A DNA stretch of 16,306 bases, from contig NYZA01000069.1 in NCBI GenBank assembly GCA_002686955.1, positions 1-16,306 of the forward strand, read 5' to 3'. This stretch comes from Gemmatimonadota bacterium (GTDB taxonomy: Bacteria; GCA-2686955). The stretch's first letter is position 1; the number at the start of each line of letters is the position of its first letter. The notes beneath the pieces are model-generated. The model saw only the letters and a list, made by a program, of their open reading frames with translations, did no database searches and was not told where the DNA came from. Below, piece after piece: positions 2,170 through 14,839 of this stretch. The position numbers and the translations under genes are program-made.

Positions 2170-2249
2170 CGATCGGCGTATGTTCCGATCGCTTTGAGTG
2201 GGAGATCCGAGCACTAGTGCGACCGGGGCCGATCCACCCGACCCGGTCG
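2170..2249 (+). promoter_or_regulatory. Palindrome-rich leader ahead of the carbamoyltransferase gene
   Basis: Three dyad elements lie within 80 bp: CGATCGG (2170-2176) facing CCGATCG (2185-2191) across 8 nt; the perfect palindrome GCACTAGTGC (2211-2220); and CGACCGGG (2220-2227) facing CCCGGTCG (2242-2249). The last hairpin ends 12 nt before ATG 2262 and could affect translation initiation. They may be operators or leader hairpins. There is no T-tract, so none is a terminator. Confidence 0.4.
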
Positions 2250-2261
2250 ATCGGAATCGAC

Positions 2262-3407
2262 ATGAATGACATATTGAGCCGACTGCGTGGAATCGAAGGC
2301 TCCGATCTGCGAGCCCTCCACGGCAAGAACCTGGCCTTGACCCAGGATTGGTCCACACCGGAGATCGAAGCCTTGCTCGCCGTCGCCGCGACCTTCGCCG
2401 ATCTCGACCGGTCCGGCGTCAAGCTGCCCCTCTTCCCCTCCGAGCTGGCCTATGCGCTTTTTTTCGACAACTCCACCCGTACGAAGAGCGCTTGGGCGGG
2501 CGCTGCGTCTCGCCTCGGCATGCAGCCGGTCATAGTCGACGGCTCCTCCACGCAGGTAGCGCATGGAGAGACGGCGGCCGAGACCGGCGCCATGTTGGGC
2601 ATGAATGCCCACGCCATCGGTGTCCGGCACGATCTGATCCTGGGGGAGGGGAATCGCTTCATGCGCGATCTCGCGAGCGGAATCGACGACTATCTCTCGG
2701 CGACGGACGATCCCCGCAAAGTGCCGATCGTCAACCTCCAGTGCGACATCGACCATCCCACGCAGACTCTCGCCGATCTGATGTGGCTCCGGGAGAACTT
2801 CCCGGATGGACTGGAAAACAAGTCGATCGCGGTGAGCTGGGCGTACTCCCCTTCGTACGCAAAACCGCTCTCGGTCCCTCAGGGGCTGATCACGCTCTTG
2901 ACGCGTTGGGGTGCCGATGTTCGGCTCGCCCATCCCAAAGAGTACCGCCTGATGGACGAATGTGTCGCTGCCGCGACGAAGAACGCTGAGCAGTCGGGTG
3001 GATCATTCCGAGTCGTCGAAGAGATGGATGAGGCTTTTCACGGCGCCCACGCGGTCTACCCGAAAAGCTGGGGACCCTTCGATCTGATGATGGAGAGGGT
3101 GGAAGCGAACCGAAGCGGCGACACCGAGGCGATGGGGGAGATCGAACAACGCGCACTCGCCCGCAACGCACGATTCACCGACTGGATCTGCGACGAGAGG
3201 CGGATCGAGCTGACAGCGGACGCGGACGCCCTCTACCTTCACTGCCTGCCGGCAGATATCGGCGCCGAAGTCTCGCCGGGCGTGATGGCCCGCCACACAG
3301 TCAATGTCGCCAGAGAAGCCAATTGGAAGGTCTACGTCGTCATGGCGCTTCTCGCCTGCGCGAAAGAGCCGGCTCTTCTCGAAAGACTGAACGATCTACA
3401 CCGTTAG
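2262..3407 (+). CDS. ygeW: YgeW-type knotted carbamoyltransferase
   Basis: This 381-residue protein belongs to the aspartate/ornithine carbamoyltransferase superfamily, which moves a carbamoyl group between carbamoyl phosphate and an amino or amide acceptor. Visible motifs are FFDNSTRTKS (67-76, carbamoyl-phosphate loop), HGET (101-104), QCDIDHPTQT (160-169), SWAYSPSYAKPLSVPQG (192-208) and LHCLPADI (326-333). The QCDIDHPTQ and SYAKPLSVPQG stretches are diagnostic of the E. coli YgeW group rather than of true OTCase or ATCase. The YgeW acceptor substrate is not established, but the family is genetically linked to YgeX/YgeY and anaerobic purine or urate catabolism. The ATG at 2262 is chosen over an upstream GTG at 2217 because family similarity begins there. 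The next gene begins 16 nt after the stop. No ygeX (diaminopropionate ammonia-lyase) is present. Confidence 0.92.
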   Translation: MNDILSRLRGIEGSDLRALHGKNLALTQDWSTPEIEALLAVAATFADLDRSGVKLPLFPSELAYALFFDNSTRTKSAWAGAASRLGMQPVIVDGSSTQVAHGETAAETGAMLGMNAHAIGVRHDLILGEGNRFMRDLASGIDDYLSATDDPRKVPIVNLQCDIDHPTQTLADLMWLRENFPDGLENKSIAVSWAYSPSYAKPLSVPQGLITLLTRWGADVRLAHPKEYRLMDECVAAATKNAEQSGGSFRVVEEMDEAFHGAHAVYPKSWGPFDLMMERVEANRSGDTEAMGEIEQRALARNARFTDWICDERRIELTADADALYLHCLPADIGAEVSPGVMARHTVNVAREANWKVYVVMALLACAKEPALLERLNDLHR

Positions 3408-3423
3408 AAAGCAACACGAAATC

Positions 3424-4965
3424 ATGGACGCACTGGACCGAAGAGTCGCCGAATTGAGCGCGGAGTACTTGCCCCTCGCGGTAGAGCTCTTGAAGGAAGC
3501 GATTCGCATTCCCGGGGACTACATAGATCGCCCCGTCGAATCCGGCGGAGATCCCGATTGCGGCCTGAGCAATCACGAGGGCCCGCGACTCGAGTATCTG
3601 AAGAAGCGAATCGTCGAGACCGGCGCCGTTCGCTCGGCCGACGATGTAGGATTCGACACCTACGGAAACCTCGTCTGGCACGTCGAGGACCCCGATGACG
3701 GCGTGGCGCGGGAAGACAAGCGGGTCGTTTATTTCGACGGACACTCCGACACCGTTCGGGCCTTGCGGAATCAATGGACCGAGAAGATCGGCGGGGGGAT
3801 CGATGCATATGCTGGCCTCGTCGATCGTGAGAAGGTCGACAGCGCCTTCTTGACGCGTGAGCTCGGCTACCTTCCCCCCGAAGATGAGTGGGACGAGCTG
3901 ATTTTCGGCCGCGGCTCGGCCGACCAGCTCGGCGGAGTGATCGCCCAGATCGTAGCCACCAAGATCGCGCTGGAATTGGCGCATGAAGGCGCGCTGCGGG
4001 GGGTGGTCATCTGGTCGTACGCCACAGCGGCCGAAGAGGACAACGACGGCGCGGGACCGATGTTCCTGATGAAAGAGGTACTTCCCGGGGCCGGCCCCGA
4101 CCGGATCCCCGATGTCGTCGTTTTGACCGAGGGCACAGGCGATGCGGAGAAGGGTGCGCTGGGGATCTATCGCGGCCAGCGCGGACGGATGCAGATTCAG
4201 GTGACTGTCACCGGCAAGAGCTGTCATGGATCGATGCCCTGGGAAGGGCTGAACCCCCTTGAATACGGCGCCGCGATCATCTCCGAGGCTGCCCGCCGCT
4301 ACAACGAGCGCGACGGTTTTCTGGACGACACTTTTTTGGGTCACGGCACGAGAACCGCGTCTTGGGCGAATCTGGAGACACCCAGCGATTGCGCCGTCCC
4401 GGACCGATTCGCATTCCGTTTCGATCGCCGGCTCACGGTCGGTGAGAGCCCCGAGCTCGCCCTCGGAGACGTGGAGGCGCTCGATGCCGTGCGTGATGCT
4501 CGAGAAGCCGGCTTGACCGTCGAAATCGAGGTCCCGCGATACGACGACGCGACTTGGCGCGGCTATCGCCCAGGCAATCCACAGACCTATCTCGGCTGGG
4601 CGACGCCGCTGGATCACGATGCGATTCGAAGGGCCGTGAGCGTCTACGAGAGGGTCGTTTCTCCACACGTCGAAGAGACCGACGCCAAGGGCGGACGGGT
4701 TCGGAAATCGGCGCGGGTCGATCGATGGATCTTCTCCACGGACGGCGTGGGTTTTCCAATACCGCGGAACGACTCATCGATCGATATCCCAGAGCGCAAA
4801 GCATGGGTCCTCAGCGGGGACTTCAAACACCCGCCGATGTTCGGCATCGGCCCGGGCATTGAGCAGAATACGCACAAGATCGGAGAATGCACTGATCGCA
4901 GAGATCTGCGCCATTCGATCTCGTTCCTCGCCCGCTTTCCCAGTGCGTTCGCGTCGGACGAGTAG
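3424..4965 (+). CDS. ygeY: YgeY-family M20 metallohydrolase
   Basis: This 513-residue protein is a zinc-dependent M20 (ArgE/DapE-like) amidohydrolase of the YgeY selenium-metabolism-linked group. Motifs include YFDGHSDTV (H107, D109), FGRGSADQLGG (D167 as bridging ligand), AEEDNDG (catalytic Glu and ligand at 204/205), LTEGTGD (E236), YRGQRGRM (249-256), SCHGS (H268, lid domain), FSTDGVG and GIGPGIEQNTHKIGE (last metal-ligand His at 484). YRGQRGRM and the FST-GV motif are hallmarks of YgeY. It is about 100 residues longer than the roughly 400 usual, with extra sequence near the N-terminus, between GHSDTV and FGRGS (112-160), and before the FSTDGV motif. It lies 16 nt after ygeW and 11 nt before the ABC ATPase gene. 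The substrate is unknown; N-acyl or carbamoyl amino acids are an inference from the partner. Confidence 0.9.
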   Translation: MDALDRRVAELSAEYLPLAVELLKEAIRIPGDYIDRPVESGGDPDCGLSNHEGPRLEYLKKRIVETGAVRSADDVGFDTYGNLVWHVEDPDDGVAREDKRVVYFDGHSDTVRALRNQWTEKIGGGIDAYAGLVDREKVDSAFLTRELGYLPPEDEWDELIFGRGSADQLGGVIAQIVATKIALELAHEGALRGVVIWSYATAAEEDNDGAGPMFLMKEVLPGAGPDRIPDVVVLTEGTGDAEKGALGIYRGQRGRMQIQVTVTGKSCHGSMPWEGLNPLEYGAAIISEAARRYNERDGFLDDTFLGHGTRTASWANLETPSDCAVPDRFAFRFDRRLTVGESPELALGDVEALDAVRDAREAGLTVEIEVPRYDDATWRGYRPGNPQTYLGWATPLDHDAIRRAVSVYERVVSPHVEETDAKGGRVRKSARVDRWIFSTDGVGFPIPRNDSSIDIPERKAWVLSGDFKHPPMFGIGPGIEQNTHKIGECTDRRDLRHSISFLARFPSAFASDE

Positions 4966-7578: not shown

Positions 7579-8136
7579 TCAGAGGCCCAGCATTCCTTCC
7601 TTCAGGCTCTTCCCGGGGGGATTCGGACCGAGCCACACGCGGAGGGTGGCGAGAGCGAAATCGTCACCCTCGACGGCGCCCTTCCGCTCCCCGTTCAGGG
7701 CCACTCTCAAGCCTTCGCCCGGGACCGCGGTGAGCTCGACGATATCGCCCTTTTTCATGTCCCCGAAGAGCGCGATCAGCTCGCCCATCCGCTCCCGCAG
7801 GTTCGCCAACTCTCCGGGAGAGTTCTTCGCGTACCCTTCTTCCAACGCCGACCTCATCTTCGATTTGGTCGCACGGTCGGTGACGAAATGCATGACGACC
7901 CGCTTCGTCCCCCCCGACGCTAGAATCTCGTCTGGGCTGGCAGATCTCCGCTCCAGATAGAGACCGCCGATGTAGATCTCTACCCAGAGCTTCTTGCGAA
8001 CCCCCATGCCGTTCAGCAGAAGACGGCTCCCCGAGACCGTAATCTCGTCGGGCATCGTGACGCCCGAAAGCTCTCGCGCGGAGGCGAGAGGCAACACGAG
8101 AAGGGCGATGGCCAGGGCGAGCAGGCGTCTTGTCAT
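7579..8136 (-). CDS. Secreted chalcone-isomerase-like protein
   Basis: This 185-residue product has a signal peptide (RRLLALAIALLVLPLASA, residues 3-20) and then the bacterial chalcone-isomerase-like fold. The segment LNGMGVRKKLWVEIYIGGLY (about 43-62) matches the family's LNG-G-R-K--Y--LYL signature. Later blocks are FVTDRATKSKMRSALEEGY and GDIVELTAVPGEGLRVALNG. Bacterial members are periplasmic and mostly uncharacterised; flavonoid isomerase activity should not be assumed. The start at 8136 has GGAG six nt upstream. A start at 8154 is rejected because it lies within the T-tract of the terminator-like hairpin upstream. It converges with the permease gene with no intervening base. Confidence 0.85.
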   Translation of the reverse strand: MTRRLLALAIALLVLPLASARELSGVTMPDEITVSGSRLLLNGMGVRKKLWVEIYIGGLYLERRSASPDEILASGGTKRVVMHFVTDRATKSKMRSALEEGYAKNSPGELANLRERMGELIALFGDMKKGDIVELTAVPGEGLRVALNGERKGAVEGDDFALATLRVWLGPNPPGKSLKEGMLGL

Positions 8137-8146
8137 GATGCGCTCC

Positions 8147-8183
8147 AAAAACAAAGAGGCGCCATGTTTCCATGGCGCCCCTC
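8147..8183 (-). terminator. Intrinsic terminator abutting a ribosome-binding site
   Basis: On the minus strand a perfect 9-bp GC-rich stem (8179-8171 pairing with 8166-8158, GGCGCCATG arms) with a 4-nt loop is followed by TCTTTGTTTTT ending at 8147. The next four bases (8146-8143) are GGAG, the Shine-Dalgarno of the chalcone-isomerase-like gene. This is either the end of a discrete small RNA or an attenuator in that gene's leader. The adjacent bases 8156-8157 and 8182-8183 can extend the stem past a two-base bulge. Confidence 0.75.
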
Positions 8184-8281
8184 AGGCTCGAGCAAGGGTG
8201 GTCAAGCCAAGATCATTCGAGCCCCAGCTTATGTGGTGCCGCGCAATGCGGGCCGGAGCAATAAAGAAGGGATGTGTGTGA

Positions 8282-8297
8282 TAGGTAGGTAGGTAGG
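8282..8297 (+). repeat. Tetranucleotide repeat (TAGG)4
   Basis: Four perfect TAGG units occupy 8282-8297, followed by another G. On the minus strand this reads CCTA four times and sits in the predicted apical loop of the candidate RNA. No other tetranucleotide tract of this kind was seen in the window. Unit number could vary by slippage. Confidence 0.9.
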
Positions 8298-8365
8298 GAA
8301 GATTGGCCCTGCACTGTCGAGCGGGACCACTTTGCTGTGTCAATGCTCCCTCATGACCACTTAGG

Positions 8366-8394
8366 AGATTAGCCGCGCCCGACCGAAGTGGCAA
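8366..8394 (-). promoter_or_regulatory. Possible sigma70-type promoter for the candidate RNA
   Basis: On the minus strand TTGCCA (8394-8389, five of six to the -35 consensus) is separated by exactly 17 nt from TAATCT (8371-8366, a weaker -10, three of six). Initiation would fall near 8360, exactly where the outer helix of the predicted RNA begins. The remainder of the 8395-8597 gap shows no other convincing site. Confidence 0.4.
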
Positions 8395-8597
8395 GGGTTT
8401 TTTGCGGGGAATCGGGATTTTCTTTAAGCCTTGAAACTCGCTGGTACGGCGCCGCTTAGGATGGCCCGCTCCGCCCTAATTCACCTATTTCAGGATATCG
8501 GACTTGCGGCGCTCCATGACATCGGAGAGTATCCCCATCACGGGAAGAGAATCGCCGCAACTCATCCACACCAAGACCCTTCGACGAAGGAACTACC

Positions 8598-9410
8598 GTG
8601 GCGGAAACACCGATCGGAGCGGAGACCTCCATTGCGGTCTTCATCGATTTCGAGAACCTGGCGTTGGCCTTCCCTTCGCGCGCTACCGTCGATCTGGACG
8701 TCGAGAGAATACTCGGTCGAATGCTCGAGAAGGGGAAGATTCTGGTCAAGAAGGCGTATGCCGACTGGGGCAGATACTCCAAGCACAAAAAGGCCCTGCA
8801 CGAGCACGCAATCGAGCTGATCGAGATACCGCATCGGACATTGAGCGGAAAGAACTCCGCCGACATTCGCCTCGTCGTGGATGCAATGGACCTGAGCTAC
8901 TCGAAAGATCACATCAACACCTTCGTGATCGTCAGTGGCGACTCCGATTTCTCTCCGCTGGTCGCGAAGCTGAAAGAGAATGGAAAGCATGTCATCGGCA
9001 TGGGCATGAAGAACTCCACGTCGCAACTCCTGATGGAGAGCTGTGACGATTTCATCTTCTACGAGAACCTAGAGCCGACCGCCGCGCCCAAGACGGACTC
9101 GACGGCAATCCCGTCGACAGTGCCGGATGACCGCGCCGAGATGTTCCGGTTGTTGTTCAGGGCGGTGGAAGCACTGCAGCGCGAAAACAAAGAGCTCATT
9201 TATGCGTCGATGGTCAAGGACACCATGAAGCGCATGCGCCCGTCTTTTCATGAGACATCGGTGGGATACCGTTCGTTCTCCGAGCTTCTCGAAGAGGCTG
9301 AGGACGAACGGTTGGTGGAGCTGAAGGTCGATCCCCGCAGCGGGACCTACTTGGTGTCACCCGCCGCACGCAAGAAGAGGAGCCGGCGCCCCAGGGCGAA
9401 ACGTCCTTAA
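8598..9410 (+). CDS. NYN-domain (LabA/DUF88) RNase-like protein with C-terminal OST-HTH/LOTUS domain
   Basis: This 270-residue soluble protein has an N-terminal NYN (PIN-like) nuclease domain at about 11-157. Acidic metal-site residues appear in VFIDFENL (D17), KNSADIRLVVDAMDL (D89, D95) and VSGDSDFSPL (D115, D117). A linker of about 25 residues leads to an OST-HTH/LOTUS-type winged helix at about 180-260 (the RPSFHETSVGYRSFSELLEE segment), a fold known to bind RNA, and a very basic tail (KKRSRRPRAKRP). Predicted role: metal-dependent RNA cleavage or processing; targets are unknown. The GTG start has AAGGA seven nt upstream. It ends 6 bp from the convergent glycosidase gene. Confidence 0.88.
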   Translation: MAETPIGAETSIAVFIDFENLALAFPSRATVDLDVERILGRMLEKGKILVKKAYADWGRYSKHKKALHEHAIELIEIPHRTLSGKNSADIRLVVDAMDLSYSKDHINTFVIVSGDSDFSPLVAKLKENGKHVIGMGMKNSTSQLLMESCDDFIFYENLEPTAAPKTDSTAIPSTVPDDRAEMFRLLFRAVEALQRENKELIYASMVKDTMKRMRPSFHETSVGYRSFSELLEEAEDERLVELKVDPRSGTYLVSPAARKKRSRRPRAKRP

Positions 9411-9416
9411 TGGCGG

Positions 9417-12400
9417 CTACGCTCTGGAGACGAGCAGGCGCGGGGAGCAAAGCAGCCCGAGAGGCGCGTTCGAAGAGGGCTCGAACACGTTTCCGAGGTG
9501 TCCCAGAACTCGAACCCGCAAGGTGCGCGAACCAGCTGAGGAGAGCCGAGAGCCGAGGTTGACCCAGTGGTTTCTCCAAGGCGCGGCCCCTACGAACTCG
9601 TCGTCCAGCGACACTTCGAAAGAGACGCCACCGGGTGGCTCACCATCGGGGGCCAGCGCGAGAATCGCGCGCTCGTCACCGGCAACGATCGGGGCTTCGA
9701 AGTGCCATGTGTAGACGATTTCACCCGCATGGTGGGCCAACCCCTGAGTTCGGAGATCGGCAAGGGTGACGACATCCGGGCGGGGACCGACTTTCTGCCC
9801 TTTTCCTTCGACCGAAAGCTCGCCGAGCAGGATCATCGGCTCCAGCTCCAAGGGCGAATGGAGGTCACGTTCCACCGCAATGGTGTTCTCACCGATCCGC
9901 AGGAGGGGGCTCAAGTCGAATGCCTCGAGCGCGGGATCCAGCCACCGCCCCAGCTCGATCGCGCGGGACACTCCAAGGTCGGACGCGGAAATGGGCCCGG
10001 GCTCCTCCGCTCGCTTCGCCCCTTTCGCGGCGCACCGACTCGCCTGGTCGAGGGGCGCTCCGTTGACCACAAGATGCGCGGCCTCGGAGTTTTCGAGGAC
10101 GAGAGCGATCGCTTCGGTTGGAGGCATGGTCATCACGAATCGCGTCTCCAGAACACAGCACTCTTCGTCCGAGCGAGCCCAGGGCCGCTCCACCAAGAGC
10201 CGTATCGCACGGGCGGCCTCATAAAGCTCGCAGGGCTCCGAGAAAGTCCGCTCGGCGTGCGGCCCCCCCTCCCCCGGCACGGCGGACGGCAACGAACCGT
10301 GCGCGGCCCGATCGAGCTTCCATCGAACGGTGGTCAAAGGGATCGCGGTGGCGCCGACCAGATCTATGCCGTTAGGCTCTGGCAGCTCGACCTCGCGCAC
10401 GATCGCCCCTCTCAAGGCGATCAGATCCGCTTTCACCTGGGCCGCCAAGTCCCCCGACGGCGGCACATCCGCGTCATCGTCCGCGCCCACCAAGAGTGCA
10501 CTCCCCCCAGGCGGTAGCCGAAGAGAGAACCCGGTCTCATCTCTTGGTAGCAGCGACCGGGCTCCGCTCGAGAGATCCCAAATCCGCATCTCCTCTTCGG
10601 CATCGATTCGAAGATCGAGAGAGCGCTCGACCGTTCGTGACACCACGAATGCGACGCTTCGTGCCCCGATTCGCCCCCGACGGAGCCAGACAGGAGCCGC
10701 GCCCGCATCGCGAGCACCGTGCACACGGCACAGGCCCGAGGGCAGATCCACCAGCCGCTTCGGCAGTATCTCTTCGATCTCGACACACGTCAGCGGCGTG
10801 ATTCTCTGGTCACCGAGCAGCGCGGCCGTGTCCGCGTCGGGCGTCGCGATCGGGGATCGTCCAGGCCGTATCACGATCACCTTTCCCCGCAGGTCGAGGA
10901 AGCGCTCGATCATGGCGAGGGTCGTCGCGCGAAGTCGGAGGACCGGGGGGATCAGCAGGAGCTTGCAGTCCCTTGCTCCGATACGAAGAAGCGCGGCGCC
11001 CTCCTCACGGGCCACGACACCGATTCGGGCCAATTGATCCTCGTCGATGAGATCGATCTGCACATGGGCCGCCAATGCTGCATGGATGACCGCTTCGAAG
11101 TCGGCGTCCAGCGCGGTGGCGCACGCCGAATCTACCGGGGACGCCACTGCCCAAACACTCTCGATCGGGTGGAGAATCGCCACCTCGGCAGTCGGTTCCA
11201 TCTCCTCGAAAAGAGCTTGCAGCCGGGCCAGATGATCGGCGAGATAATGTAGATGCCGCCAGCCGGGAGCCGCTGGGGTCAGGGGACAGGGCTTTTCGCG
11301 CAATGCCCGACCCCGCAGCGATGATGGAACCGGACCGATCGAAGGACGATCGACCCCCAGCACCATGGCGGATTCCGCGAGCCGCCTGAGCTCGGCGAGA
11401 GATGTCGCCCAGCCACACCCTTCACCGATATCGGCGCGCGCGGAGCGTCCCGTCGCGCGCGCCACGGAGGCGGCTTGCAGCAGCGCAAGTGGCCCCTCCC
11501 CGGCACGGGTCCTCACCGCGGGTTCGTGCATCACTTCGTGATGCCGCATCGCCGCGCCAATGCTCCGCGCCTGCGAAACCAAGTCGTTGTCGCTGCCGAT
11601 CGGACCACCGAGCTCCAGTCCGTGGCGGTCACACCAACGAGACAATCGACCGGTGAAGTTCTGAACGAAATAGGTCGCCAAGGTCTCACGGTACGCCCAC
11701 CGCACCTCCTGGTGGCGCCCGTTCTGTCGCCGATAGATCAGCTCCGGGAGCCTCGCGAGCAGATCGATGCCGTGGCGGAGCCGAACGATCTCCGCCAGTC
11801 CCGAGACCCATGGCAACCCGGCCGAAAACACCGTGCTCAGATCCCCCAGGTGGTAGGTGGGAGCGTTCAGTCGCAAGCCCGCCCAGGCGCGCTGATCCCG
11901 GATGCGAACGGCGCCCTTCTCGTATCGATCTTCGACCCAGGTCCCGACGGCTTCGGGGGAGAGCAGATCGAGATACGCAGCATCCCCCGACCGTGGAAGA
12001 TCAGGACAGGTGACTTGATCGATCAGAATCACGGTGGTCCCCGGCCCCGCCAGAGTCCTGCGTCCTCCGACCGGCACGAAGATCGACTCGTGCAGGATCG
12101 GGCCGTCGCGCCGCAACAAGAAGGCGAGCGTATCTCGTCGGATGTCGCCCTCAGGCAAGGTCAGATCGGCCGCCTGCTCCCGCACACGAAGAACGCATTG
12201 GCGGTGGCCATCCGGCATGGGAGCTCCTCCGCGGCGCAGTCCCGATCGATCCCCAGGGTCGGCATCGTGCAGCCAGAAGGTCGCACCCGTCTTCGCCGCG
12301 CCTTCGTGCAGCTCGCGTAGCGCGGACCACCAGATGTCCTCCGAGAGGTCCTTTGCCCGTCCCCAATCGATCTCGATTCCGAGAGGGCCGAATCCAGCCG

Positions 12401-12506
12401 CGGCGAATGAATCCAACGCTCCGGTGATCCGGTCGGAATCGACGGGACGACTCCACCGCCATCGAATCATCGGACCAGATTTCGCCCCTCTCCTCCCGTC
12501 GCTCAC
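9417..12506 (-). CDS. GH106-like (alpha-L-rhamnosidase-type) glycoside hydrolase
   Basis: The product is 1029 residues from the GTG at 12506, or 1017 from ATG 12470. Its N-terminal half resembles GH106-type TIM-barrel enzymes: IRWRWSRP, AYLDLLSPEAVGTWVEDRYE (about 177-196), WCDRHGLELGGPIGSDNDL (about 291-308), a QAASVARATGRSARADIGE block, GCGWATSLAEL, and TPAAPGWRHLHYLADHLARL. A glutamine-amidotransferase-like segment follows (AILHPIESVW, about 443-552), then beta-sandwich domains to the C-terminus. Positions where I would expect acidic catalytic Glu read D306/D308 and D359. The GTG overlaps the upstream stop as GTGA, suggesting translational coupling; a purine-rich stretch precedes the alternative ATG. 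No signal peptide is visible, odd for this family. An extension to 12923 is rejected because it is shadow of the upstream gene. Family assignment is by motif memory only. Confidence 0.68.
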   Translation of the reverse strand: MSDGRRGAKSGPMIRWRWSRPVDSDRITGALDSFAAAGFGPLGIEIDWGRAKDLSEDIWWSALRELHEGAAKTGATFWLHDADPGDRSGLRRGGAPMPDGHRQCVLRVREQAADLTLPEGDIRRDTLAFLLRRDGPILHESIFVPVGGRRTLAGPGTTVILIDQVTCPDLPRSGDAAYLDLLSPEAVGTWVEDRYEKGAVRIRDQRAWAGLRLNAPTYHLGDLSTVFSAGLPWVSGLAEIVRLRHGIDLLARLPELIYRRQNGRHQEVRWAYRETLATYFVQNFTGRLSRWCDRHGLELGGPIGSDNDLVSQARSIGAAMRHHEVMHEPAVRTRAGEGPLALLQAASVARATGRSARADIGEGCGWATSLAELRRLAESAMVLGVDRPSIGPVPSSLRGRALREKPCPLTPAAPGWRHLHYLADHLARLQALFEEMEPTAEVAILHPIESVWAVASPVDSACATALDADFEAVIHAALAAHVQIDLIDEDQLARIGVVAREEGAALLRIGARDCKLLLIPPVLRLRATTLAMIERFLDLRGKVIVIRPGRSPIATPDADTAALLGDQRITPLTCVEIEEILPKRLVDLPSGLCRVHGARDAGAAPVWLRRGRIGARSVAFVVSRTVERSLDLRIDAEEEMRIWDLSSGARSLLPRDETGFSLRLPPGGSALLVGADDDADVPPSGDLAAQVKADLIALRGAIVREVELPEPNGIDLVGATAIPLTTVRWKLDRAAHGSLPSAVPGEGGPHAERTFSEPCELYEAARAIRLLVERPWARSDEECCVLETRFVMTMPPTEAIALVLENSEAAHLVVNGAPLDQASRCAAKGAKRAEEPGPISASDLGVSRAIELGRWLDPALEAFDLSPLLRIGENTIAVERDLHSPLELEPMILLGELSVEGKGQKVGPRPDVVTLADLRTQGLAHHAGEIVYTWHFEAPIVAGDERAILALAPDGEPPGGVSFEVSLDDEFVGAAPWRNHWVNLGSRLSSAGSRTLRVRVLGHLGNVFEPSSNAPLGLLCSPRLLVSRA

Positions 12507-13099
12507 GGCCGAAAGATCTCCGGCGGCGCACCCAGTCCCGAAGCGCCAACCCTCCGGGCGTCGACCCGAGTCACGCTCGGGCTCACACTCCCTTCGAGTG
12601 AAATCAGCACGATCTTCCATTGCAGGTATCGACCGGCGGTCGGCGTGACACGCATCGGCTGACCAGGGCGAGCGGGTACCAGGAGCCAGGCCGTCCATGC
12701 GTCGCGGTCCGGAGTCGGCGTTCGTCCCGTTCGCAGAGTCAGCCGCACTCGAGTGCCCGGAGGTTCCTGACCGAACCACCTCACGCTGATTCCCCGGCGA
12801 GCGCCGCCGCCGGCGATTCCGCCAAGGTCGATCACGGGCGAAGTCACGACCCCCTGCGACCGATGTGTCTCGGCCCGGAGCTGCGCCATCAAGCCCGCGC
12901 CTTCCTCTTCGGAGGGAAGCCACAAACCCCTTGCCAACACCAATGCGCTCCTTTCGACCGTGATGTTCTCCATCTGTGCCTCGCGCACCATCCGTTTCGC
13001 GTCCATCGATGTCGGATCGAGTAGGGCCGACGCGGCGATCCAGGGTAGCAACAGGAATGCGGATACTCTTCGCTCGCGGAAACTGGGCCCGAAAGGCAT
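12503..13099 (-). CDS. Secreted beta-rich hypothetical protein, upstream partner of the glycosidase
   Basis: This 198-residue protein begins with a basic n-region and hydrophobic core (RRVSAFLLLPWIAASALL), a likely signal peptide cleaved near 25-30. The remainder has alternating strands, with VVTSPVIDLGG, ISVRWFGQEPPGTRVRLTLR, DAWTAWLLV, RYLQWKIVLISL and SVSPSVTRVDARRV, a pattern typical of beta-sandwich or carbohydrate-binding domains found fused to glycosidases. It ends PPEIFRP, with its stop overlapping the GTG of the GH106-like gene. It may be a separate secreted subunit or the detached N-terminal domain of one ancestral secreted enzyme. I do not recognise a named family. Confidence 0.7.
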   Translation of the reverse strand: MPFGPSFRERRVSAFLLLPWIAASALLDPTSMDAKRMVREAQMENITVERSALVLARGLWLPSEEEGAGLMAQLRAETHRSQGVVTSPVIDLGGIAGGGARRGISVRWFGQEPPGTRVRLTLRTGRTPTPDRDAWTAWLLVPARPGQPMRVTPTAGRYLQWKIVLISLEGSVSPSVTRVDARRVGASGLGAPPEIFRP

Positions 13100-14539: not shown

Positions 14540-14839
14540 ATGTCGATCAAGCGCCGACGGGCACTGGCCCTGGCCACCCTGACCCTCTCCCTCGCGTTTC
14601 AGCCGGCCCTGGCCGGCAACGAGACCGCGCCGGCAAAGCCGCAGTGCTGCGCCGCCGCCAAAGGAAAAACCGCGGCCCAGTGCGAGAAGCAGAAGGCCGA
14701 GTGTCTTCACGCGCTCGGCAAGGCCGGCAAAGCCGAATGCAAGCCGAAGGCCGACAAGCTCGCCAAGCAGTGCTGCATCGACGCCGTCAACGCGGGCAAA
14801 GACCCCTGCTGCGATACGAAGACTCAGAATCCGGGCTGA
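14540..14839 (+). CDS. Small secreted cysteine-rich protein
   Basis: This 99-residue protein has a clear signal peptide (basic SIKRRR, then ALALATLTLSLAFQPALA, cleavage after about residue 25). The mature part of about 74 residues carries nine cysteines, three as CC pairs (QCC, QCCID, PCCD) and three single Cys in CEKQKAEC and AEC contexts, in an otherwise Lys/Ala-rich sequence. The start is certain: AAGGAG at 14527-14532 lies seven nt before ATG. I know no matching family; an extracytoplasmic metal-binding or disulfide-knotted protein is the simplest guess. Its 3' end overlaps the convergent CBM9-like gene by 16 bp. Confidence 0.75.
   Translation: MSIKRRRALALATLTLSLAFQPALAGNETAPAKPQCCAAAKGKTAAQCEKQKAECLHALGKAGKAECKPKADKLAKQCCIDAVNAGKDPCCDTKTQNPG

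Follow-up and report, generated by a model that had tools for sequence, protein, structure and literature searches.

The intergenic gap between a minus-strand gene for a chalcone isomerase-like protein and a divergent gene for an NYN-domain protein raises the question of whether it contains a small RNA gene in its own right or an attenuator of the downstream gene—the two options that a preliminary description had offered—and, if an RNA is made, how it could act. The window, by which we mean the whole stretch of 16,306 nucleotides under analysis, is contig C69 of a 4.28-Mb assembly (G000) whose phylum comprises two genomes, G000 and G001, in the compared set. Within the gap, a self-contained minus-strand unit at 8366–8147 combines promoter-like sites, a rod with an open loop, a second hairpin, and a terminator (Table 1), and we consider it very probable that this unit is a real and independent small RNA gene. 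It is the comparative evidence, beyond a modest fold energy and a weak promoter, that leads to this judgment.

Table 1. Features of the small RNA locus in window coordinates; G001 is the relative used for comparison.
Feature	Position	Strand	Remarks
A6 tract, UP-element-like, just upstream of the −35 box	8398–8403	−	A7 in G001; a few nt before CTTGC in both
−35-like box TTGCCA	8394–8389	−	TTGCTT in G001; position conserved, consensus weak
−10-like box TAATCT	8371–8366	−	TATATT in G001; 17-nt spacer in both
Small RNA transcript (inferred)	8361–8147	−	~215 nt; start at 8361–8358 inferred from −10 spacing
P1, 5′ strand GUGGUCA	8360–8354	−	complements UGACCAC (8204–8198) within the P3 loop
P2 rod (CAGC/GCUG, GUGGU/ACCAC, CCGC/GCGG, CAGUGC/GCAUUG, GGGCC/GGCCC)	8337–8225	−	RNAalifold, arm swap
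P2 apical loop (50 nt), rich in C and U, with UCCC twice and repeated CCUA	8304–8255	−	46 nt in G001
P3 hairpin GGGCUCGA/UCGAGCCU, conserved 25-nt loop with UGACCACC	8224–8184	−	two-sided change at one pair, one-sided at two; all pairs intact
Intrinsic terminator, 13-bp stem (8183–8154), then TTTGTTTTT	8183–8147	−	−25.0 kcal/mol; −23.2 kcal/mol in G001
Chalcone isomerase-like protein gene, downstream (context only)	7579–8136	−	PF16036, E 5.6e-48
NYN-domain protein gene, divergent neighbor (context only)	8598–9410	+	PF01936, E 1.1e-36

The putative promoter had been claimed as a TTGCCA–17–TAATCT pair, and this pair is indeed present on the minus strand, with a spacer of exactly 17 nt and a position that is conserved in G001; it is too weak to be matched by a promoter scan at a 9-of-12 threshold. 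The intrinsic terminator, which had also been described, was the sole one found when 7600–8900 was scanned for terminators, and two-sided changes have occurred at two places of its stem between the window and G001.

G001 was the only other genome of the same GTDB family among the genomes compared. A BLAST search with 301 bases gave a single strong hit, a 222-nt segment of G001 at the syntenic place (E 5.8e-29). This DNA match is confined to window positions 8366–8147: it begins with the final base of the −10 box and stops where the terminator stops. The gene order around the small RNA is alike in the two genomes, and most flanking proteins are 56–77% identical, with one large protein at only ~35%. 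In the window, the Shine-Dalgarno sequence GGAG of the chalcone isomerase-like gene (8146–8143) adjoins the terminator, which is not so in G001, where the gene follows the terminator after ~270 nt as opposed to ~10 nt in the window. Because of this distance, what is conserved is the RNA unit, and not its coupling to the chalcone isomerase-like gene. A promoter and an intrinsic terminator of its own within an intergenic gap, kept as a unit independently of the neighboring gene, are expected of a trans-encoded regulatory small RNA, and the locus has them, with a promoter that is weak by consensus.

Some other parts of the window deserve mention in their own right. A reading frame of 1168 residues at 9417–12923 (minus strand) has no Pfam match at all, and its G001 relative shares ~35% identity over 676 aa. 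A 99-residue, cysteine-rich, probably exported protein with paired cysteines is encoded at 14540–14839 (plus strand), and its core is kept in G001 (53% over 47 aa). At 2217–4965 (plus strand), a carbamoyltransferase-family gene is followed by an M20 peptidase-family gene, an arrangement that we presume to be reminiscent of ygeW/ygeY pairs.

The fold energy alone is modest, with z-scores of −3.3 with and −1.1 without the terminator. RNAalifold, applied to the two sequences, yielded the rod P2, the second hairpin P3, and the terminator with 42 pairs, all of which are standard pairs in both sequences, and six of which have changed on both sides. The check for covariation in the homologous intergenic region thus came out in favor of the structure, at the shallow depth of two sequences, which gives covariation no statistical depth and no proper significance; a shuffle control of these two sequences reached the observed covariation value in 30 of 500 cases. 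The pairs include three G-U pairs in the window and six in G001 and no A-C pairs, and the structure can therefore be assigned to the minus strand. When the pairing partners were slid against each other, pairing dropped from 100% to 25–39%. We also swapped the arms of the rod between the species, folding them with the loop replaced by GAAA: the native rods reached −38.1 and −40.6 kcal/mol, whereas the hybrids reached −24.7 and −26.5 kcal/mol, and shuffled arms −25.0 and −26.3 kcal/mol. Exchanging arms between species thus destroys the rod.

The outer GTGGTCA/TGACCAC helix of the preliminary description has to be seen differently. The sequence match exists, but the helix cannot nest with the conserved P3 hairpin, whose loop holds the 3′ half of the match. 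As its GGUCA/UGACC core does not vary between the species, covariation neither supports nor contradicts it, and the pair probabilities predicted in nested folds are 0.14–0.20 for P1 and 0.22–0.48 for P3. From these models, P1 may possibly form as a pseudoknot or as an alternative pairing.

The C-rich apical loop with its UCCC and repeated CCUA motifs, as noticed before, appears in the minimum free energy fold and is predicted to be open, with an unpaired probability of 0.99. Together with the flanking GGGCC/GGCCC stem, it is identical in both species save for one 4-nt CCTA-type repeat unit, and this indel argues against a conserved open reading frame through the loop. The longest exact match between the two contigs, 47 nt at 8247–8293, lies in the small RNA and is longer than any coding match; the next-longest outside the small RNA, of 37 nt, falls within the gene for the ABC ATPase. 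A G-free run of 47 nt at 8260–8306 (43 nt in G001) exceeds all others in the 301 kb of G000 that were sampled, and 14 YC dimers are found in the loop of the window and 13 in that of G001. The loop is more conserved than neighboring protein-coding DNA, and something seems to recognize these ~50 nt closely. The plus strand opposite the loop, at 8260–8306, reads GGTAGGTAGGTAGGG; its four G tracts, which lie upstream of the NYN gene, could form a two-layer G-quadruplex.

As far as its distribution has been seen, the RNA is restricted to one family. A covariance model (R1) detected a single copy in G000 and a single copy in G001, and no member in the other 384 of the 386 genomes searched, under stricter filters by which weak matches may be lost. 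An exact 18-mer of the loop had 21 matches among 84,980 species genomes; one was G001, and the other 20 had no further loop sequence and appear fortuitous. In the nearest lineage, picked by ABC-ATPase identity (63–65%) and comprising five genomes of the phylum of G194, no counterpart was present upstream of the NYN orthologs; a single candidate there lacked the loop, lay inside a small open reading frame, and was rejected. The NYN ortholog of that lineage comes after a gene that, judged by eye, resembles a pseudouridine synthase. The plasmids, phages, and viral contigs searched contained no match, no Rfam family, riboswitches included, reached its gathering score at the small RNA, and a literature search in open-licence papers returned nothing that matched. 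The 3′ part (8233–8147) aligns with the two hairpins of BjrC68 (RF02353) at 30.9 bits, but the gathering score is 39, the G001 ortholog has no match, and neither the rod nor the loop is part of the model; we treat this likeness as chance. The assignment as a novel small RNA thus agrees with what is seen: own promoter-like sites and a terminator, a conserved unit, coevolving stems, and no Rfam family. With its transcription predicted from sequence, the RNA appears to be new and undescribed.

How could such an RNA function? We propose that it would be a stand-alone, intrinsically terminated regulatory RNA of ~215 nt, in which the P2 rod would display 46–50 unpaired, nearly G-free, C/U-rich nucleotides, while P3 and the terminator would complete the molecule. 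It would act in trans and without Hfq, and parts of the loop (UCCC, CCUACCUACC, and AUCCCUUCUUUAUUG) would pair with one or several mRNAs at ribosome-binding regions rich in purines. We regard antisense action on purine-rich starts as the likeliest single mechanism, with protein binding as a close rival, because the loop resembles in kind segments of the small RNAs sX13 and LhrC and because Hfq was not detected in the assemblies of G000 or G001 (each ~84% complete). Both sX13 of Xanthomonas (PMC3771888) and LhrC (PMC4132741) are Hfq-independent and act through C-rich or UCCC motifs that target G-rich sites close to starts. Like the RNA described here, sX13 is structured and has its activity in open C-rich loops, but it has three such loops as compared to a single one of 46–50 nt on a long rod (PMC3771888). 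LhrC of Listeria shares the G-poor, CU-rich segments with UCCC motifs and does not need Hfq, but it is only ~111–114 nt long and is present as five copies, having three redundant sites, whereas our RNA is a single-copy RNA of ~215 nt (PMC4132741).

That the C-rich loop is used for antisense pairing, as suggested in the preliminary description, is plausible, with UCCC motifs in a loop that is predicted to be open, but a specific pairing signal did not emerge from the complements or from the starts that we sampled. For two loop segments, complements with no or one mismatch turned up in only a handful of places elsewhere in G000 and G001, not convincingly at gene starts or at starts shared by both. 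At 210 crudely predicted translation starts (~7% of the genome), the mean duplex energy of the real loop was −15.8 kcal/mol versus −16.8 kcal/mol for shuffled loops, and the real loop thus paired no better than shuffled ones. Since starts are better pairing sites than gene interiors for any C/U-rich sequence, the composition of the loop alone proves little. It also counts against antisense pairing that a seed usually needs less than near-identity over ~50 nt. Given that the small RNA is real, we see an even chance for the antisense step, and the whole explanation—a stand-alone RNA that acts in trans, without Hfq, through antisense pairing of its loop—falls just short of that.

Because so long a stretch is conserved, recognition by a protein is a serious rival, which we hold to be quite possible, though only tentatively. 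According to this alternative, the RNA binds a protein: the rod would be only a holder, and the G-free loop would titrate or recruit a cold-shock, S1, or Rho-like binder, or the neighboring NYN-LOTUS protein. Near-absolute identity over 46–50 nt next to freely changing stems suggests an extended sequence-specific recognition, and the finding of no specific antisense signal at the 210 starts fits in with this. Rho prefers C-rich, G-poor sequences, and the G-free run of 47 or 43 nt with its 14 or 13 YC dimers resembles them. The divergent neighbor encodes an NYN domain in both species, with a C-terminal OST-HTH/LOTUS match (PF12872) that is weak and under the curated cut-off in both (E 0.0018 in the window and 0.00014 in G001). 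However, NYN orthologs occur in the next lineage without the small RNA alongside, and the adjacency may therefore be mere shared synteny of the region. Rather unlikely is the narrower idea that the RNA serves specifically as a decoy or platform for a protein that binds single-stranded RNA (of the Rho or cold-shock type, or the adjacent NYN-LOTUS protein), with a pyrimidine motif and not the GGA of Csr sponges; if it were true, the RNA would be a protein-titrating RNA specific to the family.

A leader attenuator, in which termination or read-through at 8183–8147 sets the expression of the chalcone isomerase-like gene, could be suspected from the window, as the terminator ends at the Shine-Dalgarno sequence of that gene, ~10 nt before its ATG, and no promoter is apparent in between. 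In G001, however, the complete unit lies ~270 nt from the orthologous gene, the gap there holds a promoter-like site (9/12, at a chance level of 0.4 per region), and we noticed no other pairing for the terminator stem that both species would share. We consider attenuation very unlikely, and as a conserved role it had to be abandoned, but read-through from the small RNA may feed the chalcone isomerase-like gene in the window species. That the locus is a conserved DNA element, such as a regulatory or G-quadruplex site at GGTAGGTAGGTAGGG on the plus strand, is highly improbable: the four G tracts opposite the loop do lie upstream of the NYN gene, but the coevolving arms, the G-U wobbles that are possible on the minus strand only, and the aligned promoter and terminator would be left unexplained. 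Hardly credible is a divergent 6S RNA (RF00013) or other housekeeping RNA that the Rfam models missed. Size (~200 nt) and rod shape are 6S-like, and the 6S model has no match in the genomes of G000 or G001; however, the RNA matches no such model, lacks a central bubble enclosed by pairing of its two ends, and is conserved in one apical loop, and no counterpart was found in the nearest lineage tested. The earlier impression that no housekeeping RNA signature is present was borne out, as 6S, SRP, RNase P, and tmRNA are absent from the Rfam scan of the region even at E 10.

In conclusion, our comparison points to a stand-alone small RNA, for which antisense pairing of the loop is the mechanism that we favor. 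It adds a well-delimited structured RNA to a poorly known bacterial lineage, and the two sequences supply the covariance model R1 and make it clear which mutations of the loop to test; Hfq was not detected in these bacteria.
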